A stretch of DNA of 45,118 bases from Flavobacteriales bacterium (lineage in GTDB: Bacteria > Bacteroidota > Bacteroidia > Flavobacteriales_D > Sanyastnellaceae): NCBI GenBank assembly GCA_020437755.1, contig JAGQVX010000011.1, forward strand, positions 1 through 45,118, given 5' to 3'. Positions 6,755 through 34,880 of this stretch are shown in pieces. The position numbers and the translations under genes were made by a program. How positions within the stretch are numbered: the first letter of the stretch is position 1; each line of letters begins with the position of its first letter. Below the pieces are notes generated by a model that saw only the letters and a list, made by a program, of their open reading frames with translations, ran no database searches and had not been told where the DNA came from.

Positions 6755-6773
6755 AAAAAGACGCCAAAGCGTC
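6755..6773 (-). terminator. Rho-independent terminator of tmRNA
   Basis: On the minus strand GACGC-TTTG-GCGTC is followed at once by TTTTTG. It starts about 12 bases beyond the tmRNA 3' end, as expected for the ssrA transcript. Confidence 0.75.
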
Positions 6774-6784
6774 CTATTGTTTTG

Positions 6785-7182
6785 TGGAGCCGAGGGGAGT
6801 CGAACCCCCGTCCAAACAAGGAATCATTAAGCTTTCTACATGCTTATTCTTCTATTGGTTTTCGATCATTCATTGGTAGAAGACGACCATCTGACTGACT
6901 TAGCCTGTTAAGTTTCGCGTTGACTGCCAGGCTTGGCCACCGCTAGCTTTTATTCACCATGCCCCGAAACTGAAGGTCAAAAGCCAACCTTTCAGAGGAG
7001 CAGCTTGTCTGCCCACCTAGTGGGCTAGATTAAGGTAATTGGTCTTGGACTCAATTACGCAGCAAGCGCGTAAGAAGTGTTGCCATTTATAGGCTGAGTT
7101 GCTGAGATTTGCGAGCCAACAAAACAAAAGCTCGGCATGCTTACATAACCATTCATCTTGCTGTCAAAGCCAAATCGGCCCC
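6785..7182 (-). ncRNA. ssrA: Transfer-messenger RNA (tmRNA)
   Basis: Rescues stalled ribosomes by acting first as an alanyl-tRNA and then as a short mRNA. The mature 5' end (GGGGCCGA, 7182 downwards) pairs with the 3' end (CGGCTCC, 6792-6786) to form the acceptor stem, with one G-U pair. The T arm is the GGTTCGACTCC segment close to the 3' end. The terminal CCA is not encoded. The molecule is about 398 nt and in one piece, with the resume-codon reading frame and pseudoknot-rich middle typical of non-permuted tmRNAs. A terminator follows at 6755-6773 and a promoter core lies upstream at 7230-7237. Confidence 0.95.
7055..7084 (-). other. tmRNA tag-peptide reading frame
   Basis: Within the tmRNA, the frame GGC...GCG-TAA encodes GNTSYALAA followed by a stop. 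The C-terminal YALAA matches the protease-recognition end of Bacteroidota tags such as GENNYALAA. The Gly resume codon is the usual position for this phylum. Confidence 0.9.
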
Positions 7183-12044: not shown

Positions 12045-12064
12045 GAAACATTCATCTCATAAAA

Positions 12065-12090
12065 AAGGCTGCCTCATCAAAGGCAGCCTT
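12065..12090. terminator. Bidirectional rho-independent terminator
   Basis: AAGGCTGCCT-CATCAA-AGGCAGCCTT is a perfect 10-bp stem, flanked by an A-run on the left and TTTT on the right. It lies between the convergent genes ending at 12044 (plus) and 12111 (minus) and can serve both. Confidence 0.9.
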
Positions 12091-28839: not shown

Positions 28840-29889
28840 TTAGGATATTTTTCGAACCAGCCATACGAAGTCTGTGTAGGCGATATAAGCCGGATAAATG
28901 ATATAGTTCTTCGAGCTGTTGTCGCGGTAGTTCTCAAACTTCACAGCATAGGTCCTAAAGGTTTCTTGTCCGGTAATGTTGTAAAGCGCTTTCACCTGAT
29001 TGGTATGGAGCTTTTGATACCACGGCGAGCAGTAATTCCAGTGATTTCTGAGATTGGATTCGCGGTTCAAACTGTACAATGTCCAATCGCCTGTATCAAA
29101 CAAAGGCAGCGCATTTTGCAATCCGTTGATTCCTTCCTGAAACAGTGCCAAAGCCTCGGTGTTATTGTCAAACAGGTAGAGATCGTACAATCCGAACAAG
29201 GAATAAACGAATCCGTTGAGGACATGCGTGGGGTTCTCAGGAAGTGGGTATTCTTCGTAGAACACTCCAAATTCGTTGGTCGTGCGCACTCCACCGGCTG
29301 TTATATCCGTGTAGAATGGTGCCAATGCTTTGCGCGCTGTTTCGGCATACGCCAAATGTCCGGTCTCTCCATACGCTCTCGCCAGCACGGAGATGCCAAG
29401 TCCCTGCGCCAGCCCCGAGCACCAGGGAGCTTTGACGGTATATTGTCCGACGGACACATCTTGGGTTAATATCCATTCTCCTTTGTCATTGATGTTTTCG
29501 ACAAGCCAGTTGGCATTCGCCAAAAAGACCTCGCGCTCGTACGTGTCTTGATTTAGTATCCATTTTTGGTAGGACCGAATGGCATTAAGTGCCAGAGTTA
29601 CCGGACTATACACCAATTGGTTGGAAACTCCCAAGGACTTGATTTTGGAGTAGTCGACGTAGTATACCAGGTTGGAATCGAGCTGTATGGCCTCTTTTTC
29701 CTTCACATGTCCGAAAGTGAAGTAGTAGTTCTTTTTGTAATCGGCCACGTTTTCAGAGAGCATCTCCCCATTACTTAGACGATAGGTTTGAATGCTCCTC
29801 CCCACCAGGAAAGCCAGGTAGGCGGTGAACATCACCGATGCCGAAACACGGAATATCTTAAATGCCCGCGAGCGCCATAAATTTTTCAT
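28840..29889 (-). CDS. D-glucuronyl C5-epimerase-like protein
   Basis: 349 residues from ATG 29889 (MKNLWRSRAFKIFRV); ATG 29895 or 29919 would add a few residues. An N-terminal membrane anchor (~18-38, SVMFTAYLAFLVG) is followed by an alpha/alpha-barrel domain. It has the features of the glucuronyl C5-epimerase C-terminal family: YVDYSKI, APWCSGLAQGLGISVLARAY, THVLNGFVYSLFGLYDLY, and a Tyr-rich end with WNYCSPWYQKLHTNQVKALY. Such enzymes convert D-glucuronate to L-iduronate in a polymer, as in heparan sulphate. Activity here is inferred from family resemblance and the glycan setting. It overlaps the end of the upstream gene by 32 bases. Confidence 0.82.
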   Translation of the reverse strand: MKNLWRSRAFKIFRVSASVMFTAYLAFLVGRSIQTYRLSNGEMLSENVADYKKNYYFTFGHVKEKEAIQLDSNLVYYVDYSKIKSLGVSNQLVYSPVTLALNAIRSYQKWILNQDTYEREVFLANANWLVENINDKGEWILTQDVSVGQYTVKAPWCSGLAQGLGISVLARAYGETGHLAYAETARKALAPFYTDITAGGVRTTNEFGVFYEEYPLPENPTHVLNGFVYSLFGLYDLYLFDNNTEALALFQEGINGLQNALPLFDTGDWTLYSLNRESNLRNHWNYCSPWYQKLHTNQVKALYNITGQETFRTYAVKFENYRDNSSKNYIIYPAYIAYTDFVWLVRKIS

Positions 29890-31144
29890 CCTCATGAATT
29901 TTGTTGTACCCCACCACAAAGAAGTATCCCACTACAATAGCCGTGGAAACCGTGGGGCTGTTAATTGCATGTCCGGCCGAAAACGAGTGCAGGCAAAAAA
30001 GCCCAATCATCACGGCGAAAGCCATATCCCGAAACTTCCTCCCGGCTGTCAGAAACTTGAATCCTAAAAAAACCAGACAACCCACGGGAAACCCCAGCAT
30101 CATCCCCCCCACAACCCATCCGTAGGAACCGATCATATCCATAATATCCTGCTCCACCCATTTGCCCTTGGCATATGTTTTCCCCCCTGTATTACCAATC
30201 TCAACATACTTGTGAAAGGCATACGTCCCCTCACCGAAAACCCTGAGAATCAGCGGACGGTCATCAATGCGCTCTTGTGCCGCTTTTTCAAGGTGGGCAC
30301 GCGCACTTTCCTCTCCCATCGACTCGAATTTCTCGAGCATATAGGGGTATTCCTGAATGTAGTCGTAGGCTACCTTTATGATCGCCATCGTTCCGGTGAG
30401 CATAATCGAGAGCATGCTGACTTTGAAGACCTGGCTCATATTCATATTGCCCCTTCCATAGAAAATGGGGACTACAAGAAAAAAGAACATTACCGCTGCA
30501 GCCCCTGCTGTACCTGTTCGCGACCCGGTAACGAGGAGTCCAATAAAGCACGTAGCAGCTTGTATGGCCTTGAATGCTGAGAAGTCGGCCAACATACGGT
30601 ACATGCTGGCAGCGAAACACATGAGCAGACAGAGTCCGATGTCATTTACCGCGATGAAGAATGATTTTACACCATAACTATTGTCATCGTACGTTTTCAT
30701 TCCCACTCCGGTCACGAATGAAAAAACCAGGAAGCACCCTACGATGAAACCAAACAGGTTGAGCCATTTGACGATATCATCAAATTTCAGAAGGTAGTTT
30801 TCCTGCAGATAAAGGAAGTAGGCCAGAAGGAAATAAGGGAACATTATCCGGGACAGGAATTCCAGCTCGGTCTTGAGCTCGATAAAATCGGCGAAGTAGT
30901 TCCAGATCACAAAGCTCACGCAAAAGAGAAAGAACATACCTCCGATCCACAGCTTGACAAACTTGTTCTTTACCAGAAAGACAAAAGGTAGAGTAAGCCC
31001 AAGCAGCGCAACCCGGTACAACGCTCCAATTGAAACTTCTGCACCGGTGACAAAGAATACCAGTCCGTTGAAGAAATCAACAAGAACCGGAATCACCAGA
31101 ATCAGGAAATTCAGCAGGATAAATATGTTGGATCGTGTGAGCAA
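29858..31144 (-). CDS. O-antigen ligase / polymerase-like membrane protein (Wzy/WaaL type)
   Basis: 428 residues with about 10-12 hydrophobic membrane segments spread along the length, among them ILLNFLILVIPVLVDFF and IGGMFFLFCVSFVIW. The motif GLLVTGSRTGTAGAA (~203-217) is the typical R-containing loop of the Wzy_C/O-antigen ligase family. A large periplasmic loop follows (~265-330: YDYIQEYPYMLEKFESMG ... WVEQDIMDMIGSYG). It either polymerises undecaprenyl-linked repeat units or ligates them; the two cannot be told apart by sequence. Starts 3 bases after the wcaJ-like stop. Confidence 0.85.
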   Translation of the reverse strand: MLTRSNIFILLNFLILVIPVLVDFFNGLVFFVTGAEVSIGALYRVALLGLTLPFVFLVKNKFVKLWIGGMFFLFCVSFVIWNYFADFIELKTELEFLSRIMFPYFLLAYFLYLQENYLLKFDDIVKWLNLFGFIVGCFLVFSFVTGVGMKTYDDNSYGVKSFFIAVNDIGLCLLMCFAASMYRMLADFSAFKAIQAATCFIGLLVTGSRTGTAGAAAVMFFFLVVPIFYGRGNMNMSQVFKVSMLSIMLTGTMAIIKVAYDYIQEYPYMLEKFESMGEESARAHLEKAAQERIDDRPLILRVFGEGTYAFHKYVEIGNTGGKTYAKGKWVEQDIMDMIGSYGWVVGGMMLGFPVGCLVFLGFKFLTAGRKFRDMAFAVMIGLFCLHSFSAGHAINSPTVSTAIVVGYFFVVGYNKIHEDEKFMALAGI

Positions 31145-31147
31145 GAT

Positions 31148-32515
31148 CTAGTAGGCGTTTTCTTCTCCTTTAAACACGTTGACCACAGTGAGCACAATCA
31201 GCTTGATATCGAACCAGATACTCCAGTTTTCAAGGTAGTACACGTCGTGTTTTACACGTGCCTCCATCAGTTCGGGAGTTTCTGTGCCACCGCGGTATCC
31301 ACTTACTTGAGCATAACCGGTAATTCCGGGTTTAACCAGGTGGCGAACCATGAACTTGTTAATCATTCGGCCGTAGTCTTCGGTGTGCTTGAGCATGTGC
31401 GGACGAGGTCCCACTACGCTCATGTCGCCTACGAGCACATTAAAGAACTGGGGTAGCTCATCGATACTCGTTTTCCTCATAAATGCCCCCCATTTGGTGA
31501 TTCGGGCGTCGTTCTTTTGAGCTTGTTGTGTATCGGATGCCTTATTGACCGTCATCGAACGGAACTTGAGGCATTTGAACGTCTTATTGTCGCGTCCTGA
31601 TCGTTCCTGTGCAAAGAAGATGGGTCCGGGCATGGTGATTTTCATAATCACGAACACTACCGGAATAACAAATGGAAACAGGAATAAGATGACGCCAAGT
31701 GAGAAGCCAATGTCAAAGGCTCTTTTCAAAAAGCGGTTCCATGCACTTTCAAGTGGTTCTTTGCGGTACGTGAATACAGGAGTACTATTGAAGAATTCCA
31801 ATTCAGCATTCCGGCTCAAGAAACCCTGAAAGTTCATCGCAAATTTGAACCGGATGAGGTTATTGTCGGCAAAGGACACAATCTCTTTTATGAGCTCCTG
31901 ACTCAGATTGCTATGTGCGTAATAAATCTCATGGATATCGTTGAACTTGCAAAAGGATTTAAGGTCTGACACATACTTTCCCGGATCGTTATTCCATTGG
32001 AAGAATCCCTTGAATTTGTAGCCTAGAAGTCGCTGTGTATTGAAGAACTCCTTGAGTTCGAGTGCAACCGGACCGCTCCCCAGAACAACCACATTTTTAT
32101 TGGTGAATGTGGCGGGTTTGAAATGCTGAATCCATATTCTGAAAAGGATACGGATTAAAGCAAGCGATAGAATGATGAGCGTGAGGTTGGTGAACAGCGA
32201 GATCTTGGGGAGGTAGAAGTTTTTCGAGAAGATTACATAGGCCATCACGAGAAAGGTCTGGGCTCCCAAAGTTTTGATCAGCCCGCTGAACAGGCGATCC
32301 ATGCGTTCGAGGTTTTTGATGTGATATGTTCTCACGAGAATGACCGATGCCAGCCATGACACATTGAAGAAATAGAGTAGGGAAAGATCATTGCCAAATG
32401 GATCAAAGATTCCCCTGGAAGAAGAGAAAAAGGTGTACCTGAAGATCAGGTTTATGGTTATAAATTCAAGTACAAACAGGAACATCTGGCTGTACCGCAT
32501 GATTCGCTTATCCAT
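31148..32515 (-). CDS. Polyprenyl glycosylphosphotransferase (WcaJ type)
   Basis: Starts the glycan by moving a sugar-1-phosphate, probably glucose-1-phosphate, onto undecaprenyl phosphate. 455 residues: four to five N-terminal membrane helices (to ~120), a CoA-binding-like middle domain (NVVVLGSGPVALELKEFF, ~145-165), then the catalytic bacterial sugar transferase domain. This last has KRAFDIGFSLGVILFLFPF, PGPIFFAQERSGRDNKTFKC, FRSM, RKTSIDELPQFFNVLVGDMS, GPRPHM and PGITGYAQVSGYRG. First gene of the operon; a hairpin occupies its leader at 32517-32565. The sugar specificity is assumed from the family. Confidence 0.92.
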   Translation of the reverse strand: MDKRIMRYSQMFLFVLEFITINLIFRYTFFSSSRGIFDPFGNDLSLLYFFNVSWLASVILVRTYHIKNLERMDRLFSGLIKTLGAQTFLVMAYVIFSKNFYLPKISLFTNLTLIILSLALIRILFRIWIQHFKPATFTNKNVVVLGSGPVALELKEFFNTQRLLGYKFKGFFQWNNDPGKYVSDLKSFCKFNDIHEIYYAHSNLSQELIKEIVSFADNNLIRFKFAMNFQGFLSRNAELEFFNSTPVFTYRKEPLESAWNRFLKRAFDIGFSLGVILFLFPFVIPVVFVIMKITMPGPIFFAQERSGRDNKTFKCLKFRSMTVNKASDTQQAQKNDARITKWGAFMRKTSIDELPQFFNVLVGDMSVVGPRPHMLKHTEDYGRMINKFMVRHLVKPGITGYAQVSGYRGGTETPELMEARVKHDVYYLENWSIWFDIKLIVLTVVNVFKGEENAY

Positions 32516-32736: not shown

Positions 32737-33717
32737 TTATTCGCGGTCGTCGTAGTGGATCAGTGCGTAAGCCACACCGTTCACCACCTTGTTCATTCGT
32801 TGAAAGTCGAGAGTTTCGGGAGTGTCAGTGGGCTCGTGGTAATTGCGGTTGCGGTAAAAGGATGTGTTGGTAACCATTATTGCCCGGTAATCTTGTGACC
32901 AATAATTCAAGTGATCGGAAAAGTCGATGCCAGGCATAGAAGCTGGGGCTGAAATGCTCTCCACAGGAAGATCGCTGCTCGCCTTCATCAATGATTTGAT
33001 TCTTCTGATATAGGATTCATGTCCTATCTCGCCTACAAGGGCAATGTAGTTCCCCACGCTGGGATAGATTAATTCGAGCCCATCTTGAGGGTAAGCCTGA
33101 CTGTTCTCATCATCAGTGAAATAGCCGATCATTTCCAGACAAACCATGAGTTCCATTTCGATTTTGTTTCTCCGGCAATACCGTGCATGATGTGCACTCC
33201 CCATGTCAGAAGTCCGAAAATAGGGTGGTTCCTCAAGAGTGAAGGCAACCAGTTCGTAGGTCCTTTTCAGCGATTCGCGGTTTTCAGACAGTATCCTGCA
33301 CAACTCCAATAATCCGGCAACGCCGCTGGCATTGTCATCTGCACCGGCCTGATTATTACAAACATCATAATGGGCACCGATCACCATGCAAGGTTCGGTG
33401 CCTGCCTCGATAGTAGCAACTACATTACGATAGGTGGTTCCGGCTACTTCAAACTCCTGATAATAGACCGAGTCCGCATATTGGCTGAATACATTGAATA
33501 TGTACTCAGCGGCCAGATTCAGCGATTCCAGATTACGGAAATTGCGGAATTCAGGGGTGTTGCATAGGAATTCTACATGAGCACGCAGACTATCTTCATT
33601 CGAAGCTTCAAAAGACTCTTGAGCAGATTTTATACAAACGGGGGTGGTGACGATGTACCAGGCAAAAGCAGGGATCAGGAGGAAAAGGATAAGGGCAATG
33701 AATGCAAACTTTTTCAT
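32737..33717 (-). CDS. M28-family zinc aminopeptidase-like protein, membrane-anchored or exported
   Basis: 326 residues from ATG 33717 (MKKFAFIALILFLLIPAFAWY), giving a signal or anchor helix; an upstream in-frame ATG at 33795 lacks this logic. Zinc-site motifs of the M28 fold are in order: GAHYDV with H116, GADDNASG with D127 (bridging), EE at 162-163 (FTLEEPPYF, catalytic base), E195 or nearby, and HEPTDTPE near the C-terminus with the last His ligand. It probably cleaves peptides in the periplasm or outside. It is preceded by a divergent small plus-strand gene. Confidence 0.9.
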   Translation of the reverse strand: MKKFAFIALILFLLIPAFAWYIVTTPVCIKSAQESFEASNEDSLRAHVEFLCNTPEFRNFRNLESLNLAAEYIFNVFSQYADSVYYQEFEVAGTTYRNVVATIEAGTEPCMVIGAHYDVCNNQAGADDNASGVAGLLELCRILSENRESLKRTYELVAFTLEEPPYFRTSDMGSAHHARYCRRNKIEMELMVCLEMIGYFTDDENSQAYPQDGLELIYPSVGNYIALVGEIGHESYIRRIKSLMKASSDLPVESISAPASMPGIDFSDHLNYWSQDYRAIMVTNTSFYRNRNYHEPTDTPETLDFQRMNKVVNGVAYALIHYDDRE

Positions 33718-33822
33718 AGTGGCACTTTTCAGGGAAAGATATATCATCTGAATCAAAACGGAGATGTTGCTATCGATACGGGGCGAAACCTTCACAATAA
33801 TTCGCGATTCAATATTACACTT

Positions 33823-33915
33823 ATGGGCAAAATCTCAACACTTACAAAAAAGTTGACCCGGATTGTTGGGGATTTGATGAGGTGGGACCCTTTTCAGGGT
33901 ATCATTGTGAGGTAA
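33823..33915 (+). CDS. Candidate small protein of 30 residues
   Basis: ATG 33823 to TAA 33915. The product begins MGKISTLTKKLTRIVGDL and ends MRWDPFQGIIVR: an amphipathic basic helix followed by a short W-D-P-F turn and a hydrophobic end. It is too short for normal gene calls. It sits in the gap upstream of the divergent M28 gene and is followed on the same strand by a nested hairpin (33916-33961) and a strong terminator (34008-34038), which together look like a complete small transcription unit. No family is recognised. The same frame is open upstream, but that part is antisense to the peptidase gene. Confidence 0.45.
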   Translation: MGKISTLTKKLTRIVGDLMRWDPFQGIIVR

Positions 33916-33961
33916 TCAGGTAAATATATCAAGCTTCATTTTGCTTGTGAAGCCAACCTGA
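33916..33961 (+). other. Nested stem-loop downstream of the small ORF
   Basis: Outer arms TCAGGT (33916-33921) and ACCTGA (33956-33961) enclose inner arms GCTTCA (33933-33938) and TGAAGC (33948-33953). There is no T-run after it. The structure suggests a structured 3' region or small RNA rather than a second terminator. Confidence 0.35.
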
Positions 33962-34007
33962 GAGCAATTACGAGCATTCGTAACTATGAATATTGCCACT
34001 TGAAAAG

Positions 34008-34038
34008 GTCTGTTCTTCGTTGAGCAGACTTTTTTTTA
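34008..34038 (+). terminator. Rho-independent terminator, strongest on the plus strand
   Basis: GTCTGTTC-TTCGTT-GAGCAGAC (8 bp including one G-U) is followed by nine T on the plus strand. On the minus strand it is followed only by CTTTTC, so it may also weakly end the lipoprotein gene at 34087. A plus-strand transcript ending here must start in the 33.7-33.9 kb gap. Confidence 0.75.
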
Positions 34039-34086: not shown

Positions 34087-34770
34087 TTACTCCATGTACA
34101 CGCTCCTGTCTGCACATCGATATCGGGCAATAAGGATTCCATCCGCTGAAGTAGCTTCCTGAATACCGGGTGAAGCAGAACGTTCCATAATCCATGATGC
34201 ATTGCCTTCCGGTAAAAGGAGTAAATCATCACTTGCCATGACGATAGACGAGGCTCCTTGACTCGATTCAACGAACAAGTGCTCATCGCCTTCCAGTGCA
34301 CCGTCAACCCAAACTGAAACAGCTTCACCTGAACCCAGGGCAGTTCCGTCCCAAACCAGTTCAAAGGCCTCATTTCTGGGGACAGAATCTAATGATGCCG
34401 GGAAATTGACGGTAGGTACAGCGATTGAGTTGGTGTAATCGTTGCCTTCCAGGTCAGTATAGGTGAAGGTTCCTGAACTTTGAAAGCCCGGAAGTTCCAT
34501 TTCATAGTAGGCCAGTCCGTTGTTCCAGGGAATAAGTTCATCATTAAAACGAACCTCTGCACCTTCCGATAGCTCCAACTTGGTGCCGGCTGCATTCGAA
34601 AAGCGGAATGTGGCACGTGCATAACTTTTGCTTTCGTTATCATCGTAGAACAACTCATAGCGGGTCCAGATAGTATCCTGGTTCACGGTGTCAGAGTCTT
34701 CCCGTTTACAGGAGGTCATATTCAGAATGATGAGGGTCATCACCCATATCACGTTCAGCTTACGATTCAT
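34087..34770 (-). CDS. Lipoprotein of unknown function
   Basis: 227 residues from ATG 34770 (MNRKLNVIWVMTLIILNMTSC); the upstream ATG at 34794 would spoil the signal. C21 after MTS is a plausible lipidation site, followed by KREDSDTV, a charged stretch common in Bacteroidota surface lipoproteins. The mature part is beta-rich: YELFYDDNESKSYARATFRF, VRFNDELIPW, an Ig-like arrangement in the middle (FTYTDLEGNDYTNSI), and a C-terminal part ending in YRCADRSVYME. No enzyme motif was seen. Single gene between the small unit and sucD. Confidence 0.82.
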   Translation of the reverse strand: MNRKLNVIWVMTLIILNMTSCKREDSDTVNQDTIWTRYELFYDDNESKSYARATFRFSNAAGTKLELSEGAEVRFNDELIPWNNGLAYYEMELPGFQSSGTFTYTDLEGNDYTNSIAVPTVNFPASLDSVPRNEAFELVWDGTALGSGEAVSVWVDGALEGDEHLFVESSQGASSIVMASDDLLLLPEGNASWIMERSASPGIQEATSADGILIARYRCADRSVYME

Positions 34771-34880
34771 GGAGTACCATATTAGACCGCACAAAGCAAT
34801 CGATTTTTGCGAAAATTACGCAATAATCCCAAGAGTTATGGGGAAGGTCTTGAGCTGCTTGTGAGGAGATCCGTTTCGAA

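Follow-up and report, generated by a model that had tools for sequence, protein, structure and literature searches.

In B. thetaiotaomicron, intergenic small RNAs (sRNAs) average 35% GC and 27 of the 49 high-confidence ones are strain-specific, as given in the available part of PMC7366714; like other sRNAs of this bacterium, GibS (RF04182), 145 nt in length, is intergenic, low in GC and closed by an intrinsic terminator (same part of PMC7366714), and its seed, near the 5' side, is single-stranded. In Flavobacterium psychrophilum, the portion of PMC9723704 available describes 45 non-antisense independent transcripts, short and transcribed on their own, 18 of them strongly folded; Rfp18, which is conserved in its genus, regulates metalloproteases. 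Given the counts in these two species, a species-specific sRNA would be ordinary. Besides sRNAs, a generic type of terminator, composed of an AAAAG-stem-CTTTT hairpin and a T run, is found in Flavobacteriales at the 3' ends of protein genes (loci L067, L096, L098 and L103).

The locus considered here belongs to a window of 45,118 nt, i.e. the whole stretch of DNA analysed, and comprises the following features:

32737..33795, minus strand: M28 family peptidase (ORF as listed; Pfam PF04389, E 1.2e-22)
33810..33817, minus strand: TAATATTG, putative -7 box for the M28 gene, divergent from the candidate RNA (pattern scan)
33823..33915, plus strand: 30-codon ORF, judged a chance frame (ORF listing, homology searches, codon score)
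33873..33876, plus strand: TTTG, putative -33 element, separated by 23 nt from the -7 box that follows (pattern scan)
33900..33907, plus strand: TATCATTG, possible -7 box, 5 of the 6 fixed positions of TAnnTTTG (pattern scan)
33911..33997, plus strand: predicted RNA body, an outer helix around two hairpins (minimum-energy and centroid structures agree)
33912..34037, plus strand: candidate small RNA, about 126 nt, predicted (fold, GC)
34002..34037, plus strand: intrinsic terminator with a 14-pair stem, a 6-nt loop and 8 T (sequence, fold, terminator scan)
34087..34794, minus strand: 235-aa protein, no family match, next to sucD (ORF listing; Pfam, NCBIfam)

The initial annotation had proposed a small plus-strand transcription unit at this place. 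The elements it described, namely the ORF at 33823, the nested hairpin in 33911-33997 and the plus-strand terminator, are present in the sequence, and both flanking genes, the M28 peptidase and the 235-aa gene, are indeed on the minus strand in the ORF listing; the T run behind the terminator counts eight residues (34030-34037) and not nine. The M28 peptidase more likely starts at an ATG near 33720, and its protein was matched in 5 of 25 genomes at E 1e-10, namely its own and four of the order, the other family genomes searched among these 25 giving no match at this threshold. The 235-aa protein, which appears to begin like a lipoprotein, belongs to no known family of Pfam or NCBIfam; a first scan of the genome contigs with this protein as query returned nothing, and it was matched in 14 of 60 genomes, its own counted.

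The reading tentatively favoured here, at a shade under an even chance, is that of a lineage-specific intergenic sRNA of about 126 nt on the plus strand, with its own promoter and terminator. A housekeeping-type Bacteroidetes promoter, TTTG-23 nt-TATCATTG at 33900-33907, would drive plus-strand transcription from about 33912 to the intrinsic terminator at about 34037, and the resulting sRNA would, if other Bacteroidetes sRNAs are a guide, base-pair with mRNAs encoded in other parts of the genome; since this promoter would be located inside the 30-codon ORF, the latter would not be part of the transcript. It is from the sequence that we infer the transcription of this RNA, the activity of its promoter and whatever target or function it may have. 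As expected of an intergenic trans-acting sRNA, an intrinsic terminator is found on its own strand, and the candidate resembles GibS and other B. thetaiotaomicron sRNAs in its intergenic position, its length and its low GC (0.36 for 33912..34037 vs 0.47 for the window). Unlike GibS, its 5' end is predicted to be paired. Like the F. psychrophilum independent transcripts, it is short and would be independently transcribed; compared by description with Rfp18, it differs in being unconserved and in showing no unusual pairing with the M28 gene. Pairing with the M28 coding sequence (z -0.3) or with that of the 235-aa protein (z -1.2) was nothing unusual, and the best z among the 24 translation-start regions of the window, -2.1, is what the lowest of 24 values would be expected to reach. 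Membership in known families was rejected for GibS (RF04182; 17.4 bits vs a gathering score of 115, E 5.5) as well as for the threonine leader (16 bits vs 55, the match ending on the terminator). The only Rfam family reaching its gathering score in the window is tmRNA, at 6782-7182 on the minus strand; its tag peptide is GNTSYALAA, and a terminator-like hairpin follows the gene at 6758.

Regarding the fold, the segment 33910-34038 reaches a z of -4.6, none of 200 shuffles being as stable (-4.5 on repetition), and 33910-34000, with the terminator left out, reaches -2.1; the fold strength is mostly that of the terminator. Among the 694 tiles of 130 nt in the window, 2 fall below z -4 and 12 below -3, the tile from 33931 on the plus strand ranking sixth at -3.6. 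Part of the RNA body folds on the minus strand too, which would suit elements that are there by chance or that take part in minus-strand regulation of the M28 gene, e.g. as a long 5' leader. The minus-strand fold is however weaker (z -2.6 vs -4.5 on the plus strand; -1.1 for 33800-34010) and a promoter-like site is found nearer to the M28 gene, at 33817, so that this explanation is improbable.

The terminator hairpin, at about 34002-34035, has an energy of -17.7 kcal/mol on the plus strand vs -7.8 on the minus strand; it is plus-directed because three G-U pairs, counted by reading the sequence together with the predicted fold, turn into A-C mismatches on the other strand. A simple terminator scanner missed it and listed two others, 2.7 being expected by chance; a second scan, our own, did detect it. 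Orphan terminators are not rare in the window: 5 of the 9 intergenic hits of our scan, 34002-34037 included, are opposite in strand to the nearest upstream gene. By its core energy (-12.7) the terminator ranks third of these nine, the strongest hit, at 12065 (-17.9), standing behind a same-strand gene. The frequency of such orphans, as well as the occurrence of the same make-up at the ends of genes in other genomes of the order, argues for the main rival explanation, a terminator without an RNA gene. Such a terminator would be either what is left of a plus-strand gene that was once convergent with the 235-aa gene, or a barrier protecting the minus-strand genes from stray antisense transcription; this is a distinct possibility, if more doubtful than probable. 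Unlike the generic terminators of the order, the one described here has its nearest genes on the other strand. Such an element may in addition serve the minus-strand 235-aa gene as a weak terminator, although the hairpin is weak on that strand.

Upstream of the fold, promoter-like sites were searched for on both strands of the window as TTG, 17-23 nt and TAnnTTTG with at least 5 of the 6 fixed positions, TAnnTTTG being the commonest promoter box in F. psychrophilum according to the available part of PMC9723704; the TTTG consensus was based on what is available of PMC7366714, and the rules for start spacing on partial texts of PMC6847099 and PMC9723704. By these rules, transcription from the site at 33900 is predicted to start at 33912 or 33913, i.e. 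where the outer helix of the predicted fold begins. Over the whole window the motif is not enriched (40 sites on the two strands vs 40.8 in shuffles); the sites are denser between genes, with 12 in 6,686 intergenic bases and 28 in the rest, a difference that may be due to base composition. When the ORF stretch was shuffled 5000 times, 0.8% of the shuffles had a site at most 4 nt from 33900 and 5.9% had a site anywhere, figures to be read with the facts that the promoter was searched for once the fold was known, that it has one mismatch and that its spacer is at the limit of the scan. The positional coincidence of promoter-like site and fold is suggestive at most.

The 30-codon ORF, from the ATG at 33823 to the TAA at 33913-33915, overlaps this promoter-like element. 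It is unremarkable, because 264 ORFs of 30 aa or more begin with ATG in the window and because its frame is already open from 33577; these 112 open codons, of which the ORF forms the 3' end, run antisense over the beginning of the M28 gene. A small mRNA for a 30-residue protein, or an RNA of dual function that encodes this protein at the 5' end, would be in line with a frame intact from its ATG and with a codon score of 0.08 bits per codon, above 74% of off-frame pieces; the same score is below 90% of true 30-codon pieces (mean 0.25 for 402 pieces of real genes, -0.03 for 611 off-frame stop-free pieces) and frame +2 of the stretch scores equally well, hence an ambiguous result. Read by eye, the start context has A at -6 and -12 and C at -3 and -13, i.e. 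two of the four adenines favoured under the rules drawn from the available part of PMC6847099, where A is favoured at -3 of the start in Flavobacterium johnsoniae. Upstream of the ORF, the stretch examined gave no promoter-like site that could serve it. The fold of the ORF stretch is unexceptional at z +0.8. A literature search on small proteins in Flavobacteriales returned nothing. Against the small mRNA stands the want of relatives: none was credible in 114 family genomes, its own included (best other E 0.034), or in 399 order genomes, its own included, none was found in the one same-genus genome, none in phage and plasmid collections at E up to 10, and there was no match in Pfam or NCBIfam. 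We read the match at E 0.034, a short frame in L032, as chance; L032, L033 and L034 were rejected as homologues since they are short frames of weak similarity whose context is not shared, and a further match, L035, had E 0.76. The ORF is thus most likely a chance frame, the small-protein reading is unlikely, and an mRNA coding for it, alone or with a second function, has a very low probability.

For the favoured sRNA, relatives were sought at the DNA level and with a covariance model built on the single sequence. Matches at E up to 1 occurred in 44 of 60 genomes, the own genome G000 included, and those outside it were all short, with E values no better than 0.004; across the order, 9 of 399 genomes, G000 included, gave matches at E up to 0.01. 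Among these DNA matches, L067 and L068 are matched over the terminator end and L072 over the terminator stem, G143 is matched as well, the L070 match is intergenic with an E of 0.0025, about chance level for 399 genomes, and the L073 match is inside an ORF. The matches in L069 and L071 fall in genes which we take to be tRNA-dihydrouridine synthases, an antisense resemblance for which the own genome gave no match. With the covariance model, 12 of 249 genomes were matched at E up to 0.1, G000 included, leaving 11 others; in the 8 of these 11 alignments and the 4 ORF maps inspected, the matches are carried mainly by the terminator, and we read the 11 matches as probable terminators, the one in G147 also having scattered agreement upstream. 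Applied to the window and 26 loci, 13 named M28 loci among them, the model gave six hits with E no higher than 10, namely the unit and its own minus strand, position 12058 of the window, L060 (E 0.011), L061 (E 0.032) and L067. As far as the matches were inspected, there is no credible RNA homologue in the 60 or 399 genomes searched by DNA or in the 249 searched by covariance model, and neither conservation nor covariation therefore backs an sRNA. Since only terminators and chance matches were found, the feature is confined to the species within the genomes searched, and conservation therefore cannot separate an sRNA from a bare terminator.

In the only same-genus genome met, G001, the 235-aa gene is 58% identical and sucD 91% identical, the two being adjacent as here; by eye, relatives of the window's next two genes (31148-32515 and 29858-31144) come after them in the same orientation. 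Where the M28 gene and the RNA would be expected, G001 has a plus-strand gene, L055:4561-5262, convergent with the 235-aa gene and followed by a hairpin of similar make-up; from its sequence we take this gene for carbonic-anhydrase-like. Such an arrangement speaks for a terminator without an RNA gene, as does that of G012, where a 297-aa gene points toward the 235-aa gene, and by position that of G031 and G002. The own genome gave no match to the carbonic-anhydrase-like protein, in a search without positive control whose empty result shows little. On the other side, the DNA search for the RNA in G001 gave chance-level hits only, and an unselected relic would presumably hardly retain a 14-pair stem and eight T while the neighbouring protein fell to 58% identity. 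The presence of an M28 gene in one genome and of a carbonic-anhydrase-like gene in the other, between conserved neighbours, amounts to gene replacement at a syntenic site. That a young, lineage-specific RNA would have two functions, encoding an amphipathic peptide of 30 residues and carrying a structured 3' part with a regulatory role, where the sister species has another gene, is hardly probable at all. Of note, the intergenic region L055:4030-4275 of G001 contains near-identical repeats with AAGCCTTCGGCAAATGC, and in G012 a short minus-strand frame at about 3838-4034 of L056, with a coiled-coil-like translation by eye, is located downstream of the relative of the 235-aa gene.

Altogether, the small plus-strand unit of the initial annotation stays plausible through its directional terminator and the promoter-like element at the start of the fold, and its small protein is not supported: no relative was found, the stretch examined upstream gave no promoter-like site for it, and its start has C at -3. 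Conservation of the frame in relatives, which had been set beforehand as decisive, was found neither in the same genus nor in the family or the order, and the RNA is equally unconserved. More generally, a short ORF that looks tidy next to a terminator need not be a gene: it can be where the promoter of an RNA lies, or nothing at all. If transcribed, the candidate would add a further species-specific intergenic sRNA to a flavobacterial family that has been little studied, and would be of value mainly for annotation.
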